Below, piece by piece: positions 3,629 through 63,192 of a stretch of 64,000 nt of DNA. Position 1 is the stretch's first letter. Every line of letters begins with the position of its first letter. The notes beneath the pieces are model-generated. The model made no database searches, was not told the origin of the DNA, and was given only the letters and a program-made list of their open reading frames with translations. The position numbers and the translations under genes are program-made. The stretch spans positions 1-64,000 of the forward strand of contig JAFQHZ010000039.1 of the NCBI GenBank assembly GCA_017415185.1, given 5' to 3'. Origin of the DNA: Candidatus Gastranaerophilales bacterium. GTDB taxonomy: Bacteria; Cyanobacteriota; Vampirovibrionia; Gastranaerophilales; Gastranaerophilaceae.

Positions 3629-4849
3629 ATGAGCAGAATTTCAGGACTAGAAAAATACCAACTTCAAGTTAAATCGGGCGAAATTAAACCCCCGACTTCG
3701 TGTAATTCAAAAAATTTAACTACACAAGCGCAAGCAGATGAATTTGTTTCTTCAAAACCCAAAAAGAAACTCACAACAAAACAAAAAATTTTAATCGGCG
3801 CAACAACCTTGCTTGCAACAAGTGCAGCAGTTTTAGCTGGATTGTTTTTAATTAAAGATGGAAAATTAAAACCTGCTCAATTTAAGGAGTTTATTAAATT
3901 TACTCCTGCAAAAACAATGGAAGAAGCAAGAGAGTTTGCAATTAAAAACTTTGGGGTTGAAAAATTCGATTTTGAAGACGACCTCGAAATGGCAAATTGG
4001 ATAAACGAAGGACTAACAAACGTTAATAATAAATTCAAAGGCAAAGCTCACATGCCAAAAATATTAGCCTTTGGCGAACATAAATCATCACAAGCTCAAG
4101 CATTTATTGACGGGCTTGGAGAAGGAATTTATATATCAAAAAAAGCTTATGATAAAGATGCCAATATTGAACACATTAAAAAATTAATGAAAAATGTTGG
4201 AATTAATATCAAAGAAAACAAAATCACAATGCTTGCTGGAATGGATAAGCAAAAAGCATTGTCGTTCATTAAAAAATATCAAGAAATGATTAAAAGTCCC
4301 GATAGCTACACAAGATTTCAATGGGCAGATTTGCAAACACAACTTGAAGACGCATACGCAAGCGTACATAAACCAATGCGCTTCATTACCGATATATCAG
4401 AAAACAAAGAAATTTCAAAAATACTAGAGAAAGAAAATATTCCTATTGTTTTAGAAGAAATTTTCCAAAAAAGCCCAGAAGAACAAACAAAAATTGCACA
4501 ACAAATTGCAGATGCTCTTGATAAACATAAAATAAAATACAATGCGCAAGGCTCAGATAGATTTTTAAGCACTTTTGACACAATTTATCATGAGATGGGA
4601 CATTTGCAAAATTACAGAAATTCAAACTATTTTACTCGCTTTTTTGGAAAACTGAGCGACAGACCAAAACAAATTGAAAAATTCACAAAAGATTTTCAAA
4701 AACAACAAATTGCACAAAAAATTTCTTGGTATGCACAAAAAGATCCATCTGAATTTGTAGCAGAAACATTTGCTCAAATGTGCAATGGAAAAGAGCTTGA
4801 TGAGGACATTTTGAGGCTTTATAAATATTATAATGGTGTAACTTTTTAA
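3629..4849 (+). CDS. Membrane-anchored putative zinc metallopeptidase (HEMGH motif)
   Basis: A 406-residue protein. A lysine-rich stretch precedes one transmembrane helix (about 53-75). The C-terminal domain carries an HExxH zinc site, HEMGH at 321-325, followed about 50 residues later by DPSEFVAETFAQM (372-384), whose EFVAE could supply the third ligand as in gluzincins. The region 95-130 (MEEAREFAIKNFGVEKF) is typical of lineage-specific proteins I cannot assign. The substrate is unknown. The start ATG lacks a Shine-Dalgarno sequence but has TAATAT six bases upstream. It is divergent from smpB. A surface or secreted protease role is inferred; catalysis is only predicted. Confidence 0.7.
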   Translation: MSRISGLEKYQLQVKSGEIKPPTSCNSKNLTTQAQADEFVSSKPKKKLTTKQKILIGATTLLATSAAVLAGLFLIKDGKLKPAQFKEFIKFTPAKTMEEAREFAIKNFGVEKFDFEDDLEMANWINEGLTNVNNKFKGKAHMPKILAFGEHKSSQAQAFIDGLGEGIYISKKAYDKDANIEHIKKLMKNVGINIKENKITMLAGMDKQKALSFIKKYQEMIKSPDSYTRFQWADLQTQLEDAYASVHKPMRFITDISENKEISKILEKENIPIVLEEIFQKSPEEQTKIAQQIADALDKHKIKYNAQGSDRFLSTFDTIYHEMGHLQNYRNSNYFTRFFGKLSDRPKQIEKFTKDFQKQQIAQKISWYAQKDPSEFVAETFAQMCNGKELDEDILRLYKYYNGVTF

Positions 4850-20877: not shown

Positions 20878-21145
20878 CTAAGCCAAATGATTTTTTACAA
20901 CAAAAACCCCAAGTAAAACTGCAATTGTGCAAACAATTATTGTTGTAAAAGTATAAGAAATTGCCCTTAAGTAATCACCTGTTTGAATAAAATGCAAAAG
21001 TTCAAGCGACATTGCGCTTAAAGTACTTAAACCACCACAAAAGCCTGTAATCAAAAGCGTTCGATAGACAGAATTAAGCCCTGTTTTTGAGGCTAAATAG
21101 ACAAAAACAATTGTTGCAATAAAACAACCAAAAAAGTTTTTTTTA
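20878..21145 (-). pseudogene. crcB: crcB (fluoride channel Fluc) remnant, N-terminus missing
   Basis: On the minus strand an uninterrupted frame reads NFFGCFIATIVFVYLASKTG, then TLLITGFCGGLSTLSAMSLE, then HFIQTGDYLRAISY, two more hydrophobic stretches and NHLA before TAG (20878-20880). GFCGG[FL]..T[FL]S..S.E is the hallmark of CrcB/Fluc. About 85 residues remain. The first helix with its GG..GA..RY motif, normally 35-40 residues before NLLGCF, is absent, and no start codon with a ribosome site exists. The break point near 21145 coincides with a TAATATGGCGGG stretch that also occurs at the tRNA-Asp 3' end. It is therefore most likely inactive. Confidence 0.8.
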
Positions 21146-21344
21146 ATATGGCGGGGCTGGCGCTTACAGGTTCGAACTTTTTGAAAGAATTTATCATAAT
21201 GTTGAACGAATTAATTGCAAGAAAATCAATTATTTAATATGTAAATTTAATTATATGTAAAGCTTTTGTTACAAAGGATGGGTTAAATATCAAAAAAAGA
21301 AAAAAACGGTTTTTATAGGTATGTAATTTCATTAAAAGGAAAAT
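21146..21344. other. Junction sequence with tRNA-3'-end-like stretch
   Basis: It begins with TAATATGGCGGG (21144-21155), identical to the boundary of tRNA-Asp and its terminator (22819-22829), followed by a GC-richer stretch with AGGTTCGAAC resembling a tRNA T arm. The remainder up to 21344 is AT-rich with no gene. AAAGGA near 21336 serves the next gene. Confidence 0.45.
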
Positions 21345-22043
21345 ATGTTTATGGAAACAAATAATGTTCAATTTCTAAATCAGGTAACTTTTAAAAGCCA
21401 GCAAATATCAAAAAAAGAAAATAAATTAAAAACACCAGAGCAAAAGAAAAATGGTGTTAAATTATTAGCAACTGGCGCTGCTACAGTTGCTTCAATTGTA
21501 ATTGCTGGTCTTGCGCTATATAAAAAACCAAAATCATTTTCAGATATTCAATTTAGCAAAGGTATTGCATATACCCCTAAAGGTGACTTGTTTACTGGGG
21601 TAGCTAGGAAAACAACCCAAAAAGGAGATGTTTTCAAAGTACATTATAAAGATGGTAAAGTGATAGAATCTTGGAAAAATAACAGTTTACTTAAAACATA
21701 TTCTTATACTGATACATTAGGTAACGGCAATACAACAATAGTACAATCTTTTGATAAAGCAAATAAAAAAGCGAAAGTTCTTTTTTATTCCGACGGAAAG
21801 GGTGTCGGGATGACATCACCTGCATCAGTGGAAATATATGAATATTCCTACAATCCTGAAAAAATCAGCATAGAAAGATTACACAAAAAATTAGGTGACG
21901 ATTTTAAAATTTATTCAGATACACTACAAGCAAACGCTGAAAAACATGGCATCAAAATTGACGAAACGCCAAAGCCTGTAAGCTACGATATTTATGGAAA
22001 ATTTCACAAAGGTTATCATTCCCACAAAGATCTTAGCAAATAA
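21345..22043 (+). CDS. FK-tagged single-pass membrane protein with MORN/YwqK-like strands
   Basis: 232 residues. A short N-terminal tag ends in VTFKS (residues 14-18). After a Lys-rich segment comes one transmembrane helix (about 38-60). The following region carries beta-hairpin units such as GDLFTGVARKT and VHYKDGKVIESW, reminiscent of MORN/YwqK-type repeats; the C-terminus is helical and His/Lys-rich. AAAGGA lies five bases before the ATG. The Lys-rich run, Gly/Ala-rich helix and Lys flank resemble the anchor of the zincin-like protein at 3629. It lies within the putative tRNA-Asp island. Function is unknown. Confidence 0.65.
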   Translation: MFMETNNVQFLNQVTFKSQQISKKENKLKTPEQKKNGVKLLATGAATVASIVIAGLALYKKPKSFSDIQFSKGIAYTPKGDLFTGVARKTTQKGDVFKVHYKDGKVIESWKNNSLLKTYSYTDTLGNGNTTIVQSFDKANKKAKVLFYSDGKGVGMTSPASVEIYEYSYNPEKISIERLHKKLGDDFKIYSDTLQANAEKHGIKIDETPKPVSYDIYGKFHKGYHSHKDLSK

Positions 22044-22138
22044 ATCCAGATAAATTTTAAAAACTTGCAATAGAATTACTAAATTACAAAAAAATATTGT
22101 ATATATCAATAAAAAATTATACCAACAGAAAGGCTATT

Positions 22139-22525
22139 ATGAATATCAAAAATATTTCAAAAACGACATTCAAAGGAACTCTATTATTTGACAGACCAAT
22201 GAAATTTAGTGCAAAAGATAGTGATGTAACAAGCAATAATAATATAGTTTACAGCGAAGAACAATCTAAAAGTATAGCTGAAAATGCAAAGCGCATTATG
22301 CAAATTCCAGATGATGAAGAAATTTTTGGCTTGGAATTAAATGCTGATAATATAACGTTTCTAACTCCTGGTGAAGTAAGATACAAGGTACCAAGTACAA
22401 ATTATGAAGCTGTTTTTTTGTTTAATGGTGATTACAAAGAATTAAACACTCAAGAATATATTAGAGTGCTTACTGCTTACAATGCGGCAAAAATAGCGGA
22501 ACCAAATGTTATAATTCAAGCATAA
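22139..22525 (+). CDS. FK-tagged orphan protein
   Basis: 128 residues from the ATG at 22139, supported by GAAAGG five bases upstream; a TTG at 22097 would only add leader-like residues. The N-terminus MNIKNISKTTFKG carries the same Phe-Lys-Gly tag as the deiminase-fold protein at 62206. The remainder contains EEIFGLELN, LTPGEVRYKVP and a C-terminal helix. There are no membrane segments and no family is recognised. A terminator, which is a duplicate of the tRNA-Asp terminator, follows within 4 bp. Confidence 0.6.
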   Translation: MNIKNISKTTFKGTLLFDRPMKFSAKDSDVTSNNNIVYSEEQSKSIAENAKRIMQIPDDEEIFGLELNADNITFLTPGEVRYKVPSTNYEAVFLFNGDYKELNTQEYIRVLTAYNAAKIAEPNVIIQA

Positions 22526-22526
22526 A

Positions 22527-22590
22527 ATATTACTAAAAAAGGATACCTGACGGTATCCTTTTTTAGTAATATGGCGGGAACGACGGGGCT
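22527..22590. repeat. 64-bp direct repeat, copy B (displaced tRNA-Asp 3' end plus terminator)
   Basis: Identical at 63 of 64 positions to 22778-22841. It contains the 19-bp hairpin at 22529-22570 and the last 19-20 bases of tRNA-Asp including the encoded CCA (22572-22590). Here the tRNA fragment is not continued by a tRNA body. The arrangement is what a site-specific insertion at a tRNA 3' end leaves behind. Confidence 0.85.
22529..22570. terminator. Bidirectional terminator, copy B
   Basis: A perfect 19-bp inverted repeat (core GGATACC TGAC GGTATCC) with A6 and T6 within the arms. It ends transcription of the orphan gene that stops at 22525. Confidence 0.9.
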
Positions 22591-22777
22591 TTCTTAGATT
22601 TTGACAACTCGAAAATTAAGCACTTCGCTTTAAAAACTGCGTTTTTGTCGCTTCGTTAATTTTCTCGAACAGACGGGCTCACGACGGGTTTAAAAGCCCT
22701 GTTCCGCCCTGGTCAAAATCCGCCGAACTTCCGCGATAATGCTTCGCATTATGCGGGTTCAATCCTATCATCTCAAT
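22591..22777. mobile_element. 187-bp insert between tRNA-Asp-derived repeats, structured, non-coding
   Basis: Visibly GC-richer than its surroundings. It contains several inverted repeats: GATTTTGAC (22597-22605) with GTCAAAATC (22712-22720), an imperfect pair near 22608-22619 and 22656-22668 (CTCGAAAATTAA against TTAATTTTCTCGA), and a 7-bp hairpin ATAATGC/GCATTAT at 22736-22752. No open frame is convincing. Flanked by the 64-bp repeats, it looks like a tiny tRNA-targeted satellite or a decayed element; no integrase is nearby. Confidence 0.5.
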
Positions 22778-22841
22778 ATATTACTAAAAAAAGATACCTG
22801 ACGGTATCCTTTTTTAGTAATATGGCGGGAACGACGGGGCT
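22778..22841. repeat. 64-bp direct repeat, copy A (functional tRNA-Asp 3' end plus terminator)
   Basis: It covers the functional tRNA's last bases (22823-22841) and its terminator, with one base different from copy B at 22527-22590. Confidence 0.85.
22780..22821. terminator. tRNA-Asp terminator, copy A
   Basis: The same hairpin as copy B with one unpaired position in the arms (core GATACC TGAC GGTATC). On the minus strand it directly follows the encoded CCA of tRNA-Asp. Confidence 0.88.
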
Positions 22842-22900
22842 CGAACCCGCGACCTCATGCGTGACAGGCATGCGCTCTAACCAAACTGAGCTACGCTCCC
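22823..22900 (-). tRNA. tRNA-Asp (anticodon GTC), CCA encoded
   Basis: The minus strand starts GGGAGCG, pairs with CGTTCCC, has discriminator G and an encoded CCA (22823-22825). The D arm is AGCTCAGTTTGGTTAGAGC, the anticodon arm has CCTGTCACG giving anticodon GTC, and the T arm is CGGGTTCGAGCCCCG. A good promoter lies just upstream. Its 3' end is duplicated 251 bp further on, marking it as an insertion site. Confidence 0.97.
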
Positions 22901-59554: not shown

Positions 59555-62116
59555 CTATATCCATACCCTGCTGTTTTTTATTTGGCTAATTTTCATAATA
59601 TTATATTTAGCCTTCAACAATTCCTTATATCCATCAGGAGTTCTTGTATATATCTTATCTAAAAATCCAAATTTTTGTTCAAGATTTTTGACAAATTTCT
59701 CAACTTGTTTGCTTTTGTCTCCAATTATTTCAGGAACGCCAATATATCCATTTGGATTTTTCAAAACATATCGATAACTATCGTCAATTTTAAAAATTTG
59801 TTCATAAGCATTAATAAACAAATTTCTTTCATAATTTGTGCTTCCAAAAAGAGTAATGTAGAATTTGGAATTTGTTTCGCTATTAAATTTTAATTTCATT
59901 TCTTTATAAGGAGTTTTAATTTTTCCAATAGCGCACAAGGTTTTTAACAACGCCTCAGCAAGATTTTTAAGATTTTCTTGTTGAATAAATTTATAATAAT
60001 TTTTATCAACAACATATTCCCAATCTTTTCCTATCGCATTGCAATTAGATAACATTTTAAGAATAAATTTATTAAATCTTCTATCTTTAATTTCTTTTGT
60101 ATAAATGCTGTTTTCATGAATAATATGCTTAAGAAAAGAAAGATATTCAGGAATTTCATTGATTGTTATATCTATTTGAGTATCTTCGCCTTCAATAACA
60201 TTATAAACTTGAGAAACCATAATATCTTCAGTTATTGCGCTTTTTTTAAAAATTTGTTGCCATTTTGTTTTCAAATTTCTCCTATCAAGAGCATATTCAA
60301 AAATTTTTCTATTAAGCTTTGCACAATCCAATTTTTCAATTAAGCCATAATTCAAATCAAGCCTATCTATTCCATTTCGAATTTTATTATCGCAATAGCT
60401 TATGCCTTCAAAAGTATTAAATCGTTTTTCAATAGTTAAATAGTCTTGGTTTGATAAGAAATTTTTATCTAAAGAAACAAGATGCCAAATATTAGAAGTT
60501 TTATTTGGATTGTTTTTATTAATTCTTAAAGCTCGTCCTCTCATTTGATTTGAAAGCATAAAAGAACCAACAACGCTTGCAATTATAAGCGTATTTACGC
60601 TTGGAGAATCCCATCCTTCCCCTAAAAGCGCAGCAGTTCCAATTAAAATATTCATTTCGCCAAATTCAAAAAGACGAGTAATTATTCCAACAATATCAAT
60701 ATTTCCATAAGCTTCTACTCTTAAATAATTGTCTTTAAAGTCCGCAGTTAAAACCTTTGAGCTATCTATGTTTTCTTTTTTTAAAAATTCATAAAGTCTT
60801 TCTTTTGCATTTTTTGGAATTACAATTAAAGTTCCGGTTAAAACGCCGAGTTTAATATCTAAATCATATAATTTATCAAAAACTGATAAAATATTGAGTC
60901 CTTCGCTGTCTCCCTTTCCGATATAATCAAGCAAAACAACTTCTCTTAATTCATTTTGCAAAACTTCATGTTCAAACTTTGAAATGTTATAAATTGCTTC
61001 AAGTTTATTTTTGCTTCTTGCAAAAAGCTTCTTAAAGTCTGTTTTTCCGCTAAAATCAACCTTATTTCCATTAATTAAATTTAATTCTTTTAATTTGTTT
61101 TTAATTAATGCGCTTCCTTTGAATACTTTTTCAAAATCAGAAAAAATTGAATTAAAAAAAGTTTGTGCAACATTATAATCAAACTTTGGAATTTGCTTAA
61201 TATCTAAATCCAAAAATTCCAATAATAATCTTGCTTCCATAGATAATTCATCACAAAACAATAAATATGAAATCAAAGAAACACTGAATGTTGTGTTTTT
61301 ATAAATTAACTCCATATTCTTTTCGATATCACAAACAAAAGGGGACGTTAAAACATTAGAATAAAAATCAAAATTAGTGTTAATATATTCAAAAAATTCT
61401 CTTCTTTTTTCGTCAAAATCAAAAATGATATTGTTCTCTTCATTTGTTAAATTTGAAAAATAAATCAAATCTTGATGAGGACACAAATCTCCTGTTTTAA
61501 CAAGTTCAGGAATTGATATTTCAGCATCAGTTGGCCCGCATAAATTATGATAATTTTGCCATTCACGAGGCGAAACATCATAAGGAGGAGTTCCTGTAAG
61601 AGAAACAATTTTTAAATCTTCATTTTCTAAAGTTTTTACTAATCCGCTTAAAGTTGCCCACCATTCAACTCTTAAATGGTGCGCTTCATCAAGAATTATC
61701 GTCTTTATATTAAAAGATTTTAAATCAGCAACTAATTTTTCAATATCTTTTTTTGTTTTGTATAAAGTATGAAGAGCTTGATATGTTGTTATTGTGATTG
61801 TTGAAATATTTCTTATATCGGTACTTATCCATGTTGTATCACAATTTTCTTGCAAAAAATTATCAATTATTCTTTGTTTCCATTGATTTTTAATTGTTAT
61901 AGTTGGAGCAAGAATAAAAGCAGGGTTATTTAATCTTTTTAAAACTTCTATTCCTAAAGTTGTTTTCCCAGCGCCAGGAGCTGCTACAACATTTAATTTT
62001 GAATCATTTAAATGTTTTTCTAATTCGTTTAAAACCCTTTTTTGATAAGAACGCCAAGTCCCCTTAAAATTAATTTTTTCTATGTTTTCCTTGGTTTCTT
62101 CTCTAATTTCCATCAT
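59555..62116 (-). CDS. SF2 DEAH-box helicase with long uncharacterised C-terminus
   Basis: 853 residues. Motif I AAPGAGKTT (45-53), motif Ia ILAPTITIKNQW, DEAH (143-146), motif III SLTGTPP (172-178), then a 250-residue insert, motif V LGEGWDSPS and motif VI QMRGRALRINK. This is the SSL2/type III restriction-like branch. The last 280 residues match nothing I know. Two ATG codons start the gene (62116 and 62113) without a clear ribosome site. It is six bases upstream of the J-domain gene. No nuclease or methylase is adjacent, so a defence role is possible but unsupported. Confidence 0.87.
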   Translation of the reverse strand: MMEIREETKENIEKINFKGTWRSYQKRVLNELEKHLNDSKLNVVAAPGAGKTTLGIEVLKRLNNPAFILAPTITIKNQWKQRIIDNFLQENCDTTWISTDIRNISTITITTYQALHTLYKTKKDIEKLVADLKSFNIKTIILDEAHHLRVEWWATLSGLVKTLENEDLKIVSLTGTPPYDVSPREWQNYHNLCGPTDAEISIPELVKTGDLCPHQDLIYFSNLTNEENNIIFDFDEKRREFFEYINTNFDFYSNVLTSPFVCDIEKNMELIYKNTTFSVSLISYLLFCDELSMEARLLLEFLDLDIKQIPKFDYNVAQTFFNSIFSDFEKVFKGSALIKNKLKELNLINGNKVDFSGKTDFKKLFARSKNKLEAIYNISKFEHEVLQNELREVVLLDYIGKGDSEGLNILSVFDKLYDLDIKLGVLTGTLIVIPKNAKERLYEFLKKENIDSSKVLTADFKDNYLRVEAYGNIDIVGIITRLFEFGEMNILIGTAALLGEGWDSPSVNTLIIASVVGSFMLSNQMRGRALRINKNNPNKTSNIWHLVSLDKNFLSNQDYLTIEKRFNTFEGISYCDNKIRNGIDRLDLNYGLIEKLDCAKLNRKIFEYALDRRNLKTKWQQIFKKSAITEDIMVSQVYNVIEGEDTQIDITINEIPEYLSFLKHIIHENSIYTKEIKDRRFNKFILKMLSNCNAIGKDWEYVVDKNYYKFIQQENLKNLAEALLKTLCAIGKIKTPYKEMKLKFNSETNSKFYITLFGSTNYERNLFINAYEQIFKIDDSYRYVLKNPNGYIGVPEIIGDKSKQVEKFVKNLEQKFGFLDKIYTRTPDGYKELLKAKYNIMKISQIKNSRVWI

Positions 62117-62205: not shown

Positions 62206-63192
62206 ATGAAAATCAATTTTTCTCATCCCCAAAATTTCAAAGGATACGATGCTCTTGCGCTAAAAGCGCTCCATATAGAAGAATCTACAAGCGAGCCAAT
62301 AAGAGAAGAGCTTAAAAATATTGCAAAAAAAGAAAATTTTGAACTTAGACAAGAACTTGATTATTTCAAATGGACACAAGATTTTAAAACAATCATCGAA
62401 CAAAAAGGAAAACCCGTTGTTGTGGTTAATAATCGAGTGGATGAGAATTTTCTTGATGAAATGAAATATAGATATGGAATTCAAGGAAAAACACTAGATT
62501 TAATTGCAACAGGAGGAAATTCATTCATTGGCAAATTTCCAAATGGCGACAAATGGATGTTAATTGGAGAAAGCGAATTTAACACAAAATCAAAAAAATA
62601 TATTTCAAAAGAATACGAAATTAAAGAAGAAAATATTTTTCCAATTCCTCAACAATATTACCATCTTGATATGTTTTTAAGGCCCATAGGTTTTCCTTAT
62701 GTTTTAGTTGACAGCCCTGTTTTGTCGGAAAAAAAGCTTGCTTCAAAAGATATAAGACAAGGAAGTTATGATTATATAACTTTAAACAAAGAGTTTAAAT
62801 ATTGGGAACAAAACCGCTCAAAAAATTATGATTCACATAACGATGTGATTGAAGCATTAGAAAAAGCAGGCTTTAAACCGATTCAAATTGCAGGAGTATT
62901 TGGTTCAGGAATCAATTTTATGAATGCGATAATAAATCAACACCAAGACGGTACAATTTCATATATAACCAACGGCACAAAATGCGATAGCGATTTTATA
63001 ACCAGCCTTCAACAAGATTTTGAAAAAGAGCTAAGACAAAAAGTTCCAAACATAAGAAATGTTTATTTTGTAAATGGCGACGATTCATATACTAACGAAA
63101 TGTCGAATTATATGATGGACAATTTAGCCTATCGTGGAGGCGGAATTCATTGTATGAGTTTAGAAGAACCTAGTTTTGAACTTTGGGGGTAA
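62206..63192 (+). CDS. FK-tagged deiminase-fold (guanidino-modifying enzyme) protein
   Basis: 328 residues. After the tag QNFKG (9-13) the protein follows the order of agmatine or peptidylarginine deiminase-type enzymes. It has ATGGNSFIGKFPNG (101-114), YYHLDMFLRPIG with the putative catalytic His153 and Asp155, VFGSGINFMN, and GGGIHCMSLEEP with the putative nucleophile Cys316 close to the C-terminus, as in agmatine deiminases (GGGIHC). The overall sequence is otherwise divergent. A substrate with a guanidinium group, free or in protein, is predicted. No agmatine-pathway genes are nearby. It overlaps the next convergent gene by 23 bp. Confidence 0.7.
   Translation: MKINFSHPQNFKGYDALALKALHIEESTSEPIREELKNIAKKENFELRQELDYFKWTQDFKTIIEQKGKPVVVVNNRVDENFLDEMKYRYGIQGKTLDLIATGGNSFIGKFPNGDKWMLIGESEFNTKSKKYISKEYEIKEENIFPIPQQYYHLDMFLRPIGFPYVLVDSPVLSEKKLASKDIRQGSYDYITLNKEFKYWEQNRSKNYDSHNDVIEALEKAGFKPIQIAGVFGSGINFMNAIINQHQDGTISYITNGTKCDSDFITSLQQDFEKELRQKVPNIRNVYFVNGDDSYTNEMSNYMMDNLAYRGGGIHCMSLEEPSFELWG

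Follow-up and report, generated by a model that had tools for sequence, protein, structure and literature searches.

Short non-coding repeats at tRNA 3' ends in Gastranaerophilales and a structured palindrome residing in a copied tRNA-Asp T-loop

The tyrT and tyrV loci of E. coli are known for their 178-bp repeats and the rtT RNA. ERIC sequences and the Rickettsia RPEs are short palindromic dispersed repeats. In Salmonella, a VNTR of 175 bp is listed at the rtT RNA (PMC2658671), and programs that search for genomic islands drop tRNA fragments that lie less than 2 kb from the tRNA or are not accompanied by an integrase (PMC4383910). In the genome of E. coli MG1655, 19-nt copies of the tRNA end (A58 to A76; AATCCTTCCCCCACCACCA) follow tyrV at +159, +337 and +515. 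An inverted T-arm, GGGGAAGGATGAGAAGCTTCGA, lies ~60 nt after the tRNA, a feature of these repeats that was read here from the E. coli sequence and not taken from the literature. A GC-rich palindrome interrupts the T-loop of the direct T-arm copy, AAGGTTCGA..ATCCTTCCCC. The small RNA RttR is annotated at the same place, and no integrase is found among the annotated neighbours of tyrT.

The window, a 64,000-nucleotide stretch of a Candidatus Gastranaerophilales genome (G000; 1.87 Mb in 43 contigs) whose pdxJ protein matches MAG entries from the order with identities up to 85-86%, was compared with a genus set of ~27-28 genomes. Its tRNA-Asp gene is followed by a unit of ~250 bp that contains no gene and comprises a terminator, an inverted piece of the T-arm and a direct copy extending from the T-loop to the tRNA end (Table 1). 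Positions 22527-22590 and 22778-22841 form a 64-bp repeat with a single mismatch. Between 19.5 and 25.0 kb, exact repeats reach 49 nt, whereas none of 50 shuffles exceeded 16 nt, and the direct repeat put forward in the original prediction is thus real. The tRNA contributes 19 nt to it (AGCCCCGTCGTTCCCGCCA), starting at A58 of the T-loop and ending with the encoded CCA. The second copy starts in the T-loop, reaches the tRNA 3' end and continues into a terminator, and it lies 3' of tRNA-Asp on the same strand, which is the orientation left by integration at a tRNA 3' end, as had also been predicted. The proposal that the repeats delimit a small island with orphan genes was not supported, with both orphan ORFs located beyond the second copy. 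A single unit is present at tRNA-Asp. Its two terminators are 45/46 identical in G000, and those of the corresponding units in G005 and G017 differ.

Table 1 Features of the tRNA-Asp locus and its 3' flank (positions in the window).
Feature	Position	Strand	Basis or remark
crcB lacking its N-terminal part	20878..21143	-	Pfam PF02537 (CRCB) positions 55-103 of 103, E=5e-11
Decayed T-arm-like third match	21144..21177	-	Homologous to sequence upstream of intact crcB in G005
Orphan ORF, 232 aa	21345..22043	+	Beyond the unit
Orphan ORF, 128 aa, N-terminal TFKG tag	22139..22525	+	Beyond the unit
Second terminator palindrome, within the 64-bp repeat	22527..22571	-	Terminator scan
Direct repeat of the 19 terminal nt of tRNA-Asp (A58 to A76)	22572..22590	-	
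Element I, 133-bp dispersed palindrome, GCGGATTTTGAC...GTCAAAATCTAAGA	22591..22723	-	Inserted in the T-loop copy behind TTCG
5' part of the direct T-arm copy, CGCGGAAGTTCG	22724..22735	-	Sequence and hairpin fold; parted from the 3' part by element I
Inverted, partly decayed T-arm copy, AGATGATAGGATTGAACCCGC	22753..22773	-	Duplex test, folds
First terminator-like palindrome, immediately 3' of tRNA-Asp	22778..22822	-	Inverted repeat; near-identical to the second copy
tRNA-Asp(GTC)	22823..22900	-	Intact, CCA encoded; ARAGORN; Rfam RF00005, 67.6 bits

The 187 bp at 22591-22777, originally read as one structured insert, are indeed structured but composite: the 133-bp palindrome, termed element I, is joined by ~54 bp of tRNA-derived hairpin sequence (22724-22777) that does not belong to it. 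Once element I is removed, folding brings 22753-22773, 22724-22735 and 22572-22590 together in one extended hairpin, in which the displaced tRNA end forms the 3' strand and the inverted T-arm copy, with G-U pairs, forms the 5' strand. Shuffled sequences pair with the tRNA tail as well, in 5-45 of 100 cases, so that the fold on its own counts for little. The T-arm duplex was compared with shuffled flanks, a test that covers few units, partly related to each other, so that its p values are not to be multiplied. It is borderline in the window (-21.8 kcal/mol, p=0.096) and clear in G017 (-22.9, p=0.017), in RUG11040 of another genus (-22.8, p=0.003), in E. coli tyrV (-27.0, p=0.007) and at the Lys, Leu and two of three Arg loci (p=0.007-0.04). 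The same test detects no inverted T-arm at the G005 Asp, Met and Glu loci. Where it is detected, the inverted T-arm lies behind the terminator and can base-pair with the direct copy.

Displaced tRNA ends recur at other tRNAs. A search of the 32 tRNAs of G000 with a 17-nt tail and at most two errors identified copies of the 3' end 100-234 bp downstream of four (Asp, Met, Lys and Leu), with none upstream and none inverted, and 96 tRNA loci yielded 19 copies downstream, two upstream and one reversed. At the loci compared, the copies begin in the T-loop. The 3' end of tRNA-Arg(TCT), GCATCCAGGGTA, occurs at 42 sites in 18 genomes, on one strand per genome. It forms tandem arrays across the genus. 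Where repeated, the spacing is mostly 140-340 bp, relatives carry up to 3-4 further copies, and a reversed-pattern control returned no match. G008 and G001 have no such site other than the tRNA itself. Reverse transcription of a mature tRNA was rejected as a source, because the tRNA-Arg copies run into the genomic 3' flank and have no CCA. Found in like form behind several other tRNAs of relatives and behind tRNA-Tyr of E. coli, the unit represents a non-coding repeat that recurs at tRNA ends rather than a very small island with genes. Separately, the tRNA-Lys and tRNA-Leu loci of G000 (L074 and L086) share a filler, AAAGACATTTAGTCTTT...CGGCAGAGT, behind two different tRNAs.

The 140-149-bp unit behind tRNA-Arg, designated the A unit, retains TTCTCAGCATCCCCC and GGGG(T/A)CCCTGTTCGAATCGCATCCAGGGTA unchanged in 10 genomes, with a filler that is free to vary. 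One of these two invariant blocks is not tRNA sequence, which hints at selection. The A unit at L022:4075-4220 and its homologues in nine other genomes could correspond to a small RNA with a tRNA-like 3' end.

Element I has copies across the genus, as a search with the tRNA-Asp locus revealed. A covariance model recovered 78 copies, spread over 17 of 27 genus genomes, and also matched 43 of 117 genomes in a sample of the order; E-values are rough, and the searches covered genus and order genomes only. The family comprises non-coding palindromes of 115-141 bp. An alignment of 22 copies, on which the covariance model is based, supports a fold that has a three-way junction and is closed by an outer stem of 10 bp; 19 of the 30 predicted pairs show compensatory changes. 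Among the 40 strong copies whose flanks were read, 22 are flanked on one or both sides by tRNA 3'-end sequence, derived from Arg, Asp, Asn, Glu or Leu and always in the orientation of the tRNA. The remaining copies reside in another repeat (CCTGAA..TTCAGGGT) or, in three genomes, at CATGGGAATGATGTA. Copies also occur head to tail with 1-2 nt between them. Rfam searches with element I and the units returned chance matches below threshold only. Element I is a dispersed element with a conserved structure that lacks an Rfam match and prefers tRNA-derived hairpins. An integron attC was rejected, since the RYYYAAC/GTTRRRY cores are missing, the fold is unfit and the ends, read by eye, are GCGGATTTTGAC and GTCAAAATCCAAGA. 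A long target-site duplication was likewise rejected, because the flanking repeat is only 64 bp and ends at the second terminator. In G005, near-identical copies at contig ends (L026 and L028) lie within a dispersed CATGCTGAACTTGTTTCAGCAT-type repeat. A second palindrome is likewise inserted in a copied T-loop in G020 and G002 (L234 and L242). It differs from element I, lies in the T-loop of a tRNA-Arg copy with GAAT on both sides, and is in tandem in G002.

The original prediction of a hotspot 3' of tRNA-Asp was borne out: gene content there is unlike in most genus genomes. Occupied and empty sites were expected as well, and in a tree of the upstream region G006, which has no second copy, is sister (support 0.98-0.99) to G005, G017 and G000, which carry the unit with element I. 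Since the unit is lacking in G006 and present in these three sister genomes alone, a single gain would be the simplest reading. A short second copy is present at +679 in G011, and a decayed one at +180 in G012; nothing above shuffled controls appears in the remaining genus genomes. An apparent second copy in G039 is a contig overlap inside the same tRNA. A G011 ORF beside tRNA-Asp resembled a recombinase fragment, but a near-identical version of its sequence gave no significant Pfam match. A gene family of ~370 aa (c4) lies immediately behind tRNA-Asp in G001, G004, G013, G016, G019, G021 and G023, with two different right-hand neighbourhoods.

The right boundary of the variation is not where it was predicted. 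The difference between G000 and G005 starts immediately after the second terminator and ends before the first orphan gene, ~150 bp short of the proposed third copy at the cut end of crcB. The 12-nt match there is exact (TAATATGGCGGG, 21144-21155) and crcB is indeed cut, but the 34-nt T-arm-like stretch around it, GTTCGAACC...CCCCGCCATATTA, is decayed, scoring 26 against the tRNA 3' end, compared with 20 for the best of 352 other windows. Its G005 homologue, just upstream of an intact crcB, scores at background. Because this stretch, like the promoter region ahead of the first orphan gene, is homologous in G000 and G005, it is old rather than the boundary of the variation, and it represents a weak, decayed copy. 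G005, G007 and G012 have an intact crcB, which makes the truncation in G000 a later deletion, ending at the third match. The 128-aa orphan (22139-22525) has no homologue in the genus, and the middle of the 232-aa orphan is a domain of larger genus proteins, with matches in 18 of 27 genomes. Both carry an N-terminal (S/T/N)FKG-like motif that recurs on otherwise unrelated proteins in the window (21345-22043, 22139-22525, 59555-62116 and 62206-63192) and in orphans of relatives, and that may be a sorting or secretion tag.

The explanation we favour, with somewhat better than even confidence, is that the unit is a tRNA-anchored non-coding repeat of the E. coli tyrT/rtT type that serves as a landing pad for palindromic elements. 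We infer that a duplication beginning in the T-loop at the tRNA 3' end brought an inverted copy along, and that unequal recombination between identical tRNA 3' ends could then raise the number of units. Being dispensable and forming a hairpin, the displaced copy would be a tolerated target for palindromic elements; at tRNA-Asp, element I sits behind TTCG in the T-loop copy. The orphan genes further out belong to a separately variable intergenic region.

An origin by recombination is the main competitor. The 19-nt copy could be the attR of an element with a tyrosine integrase of the T-loop class that lost nearly all of its DNA, leaving a scar later entered by element I. The copies do start in the T-loop, a known site of crossover in tRNAs, and extend to the 3' end; their place and orientation fit as well, and the differing terminators of G005 and G017 favour recombination, since a simple tandem duplication predicts none. 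A true integrase-bearing island also exists in G000, where contig C40 encodes a 373-aa tyrosine recombinase (L022 2763-3884) beside a tRNA-Arg copy (4020-4086), in an island of ~12.7 kb from the tRNA (C40:6278). Two short units follow this attachment copy. The attachment repeat of the island starts in the anticodon loop, and the units start in the T-loop; long islands and short units therefore share a tRNA and differ in the point at which the copy starts. At tRNA-Asp, however, the segment contains no integrase, as originally predicted (the five tyrosine recombinases of G000 lie elsewhere), and a gene-free length of ~250 bp, mostly 140-340 bp in arrays, speaks against such a remnant. Att sites are not expected to come with an inverted T-arm that matches the direct copy, the same layout occurs at E. 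coli tyrT with no integrase annotated nearby, and the G000 terminators are nearly identical. Because of the inverted half and these terminators we lean towards duplication, possibly by fold-back replication, rather than T-loop recombination, and consider the attR scar unlikely, though far from negligible. A different role for recombination, in which the T-arm halves fold as a single strand into an att site that a tyrosine recombinase joins to the tRNA T-loop, giving integron-like arrays, is very improbable; that the tRNA would be the platform of such a cassette system, with head-to-tail arrays built as in integrons, deserves just as little credence.

Selection on the units themselves, as sources of an rtT-like RNA that is freed from the tRNA transcript and has a tRNA-like 3' end, would account for the invariant blocks of the A unit, of which only part is tRNA sequence, and has a parallel in the RttR annotation of E. 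coli. The tRNA-Asp unit, confined to three sister genomes and broken by element I, speaks against this scheme, and covariation in the helices of the invariant blocks is slight or absent, with no Rfam match above threshold; we regard it as improbable. The reading originally proposed, of tiny satellites mobilised in trans with nested att copies and orphan genes as cargo, fares worst and is scarcely credible. The variable gene content behind tRNA-Asp, the decayed third copy and the tyrosine recombinases present in all 27 genomes searched would suit it. However, copies 1 and 2 enclose no gene, the structured insert contains a separate palindrome, the unit was inherited by three sister genomes, the variation stops short of the third copy, and most of the variable genomes have no second copy. 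Nor was a matching phage att site found: the 24-nt att string, like the A unit and element I, has no exact match in viral contigs. The locus is a hotspot, and nothing shows a mobilised mini-satellite.

Among known systems, phage satellites (PICI/PICMI) are distinguished by integrase, packaging and regulatory genes, all of which are missing from 21144-22900. Islands integrated at tRNAs, as defined by Islander (PMC4383910), share with the unit an intact tRNA, a same-strand 3' fragment and a copy that starts in the T-loop. They differ from it in that the unit has no integrase and no gene, carries an inverted T-arm of borderline support and, at ~250 bp, falls below the 2-kb lower limit. Short units at tRNA ends thus pass unseen by finders that require at least 2 kb or an integrase (PMC4383910). 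Element I resembles the REP/BIME palindromes, which are moved by RAYT Y1 transposases, in being palindromic and non-autonomous and in lacking a target duplication at the tRNA-Asp site. However, a Y1 transposase is absent from G000 and from 26 of 27 genus genomes, so that no Y1 transposase explains element I, and a RAYT/REP system was rejected on these grounds. Like ERIC and the RPEs, element I is short, palindromic, non-coding and dispersed in many copies, with a conserved fold; it differs from them in sequence, in the three-way junction of that fold, in its head-to-tail copies and in its strong preference for displaced tRNA ends.

The closest counterpart is E. coli tyrT/rtT, with which the unit shares the last 19 nt of the tRNA, a palindrome in the copied T-loop and, at borderline strength in the window, the inverted T-arm. 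The E. coli repeats are arranged head to tail, and relatives carry arrays behind tRNA-Arg, whereas tRNA-Asp of the window has one unit, which has an unrelated filler and no tpr-like ORF and is interrupted by a dispersed mobile palindrome. The E. coli and Gastranaerophilales fillers have no obvious common sequence, and the common layout could be convergent. Its occurrence at several Gastranaerophilales tRNAs and at E. coli tyrT points to the tyrT repeats as an example of a more general growth of tRNA 3' ends, which the Gastranaerophilales genome set allows to be tested.
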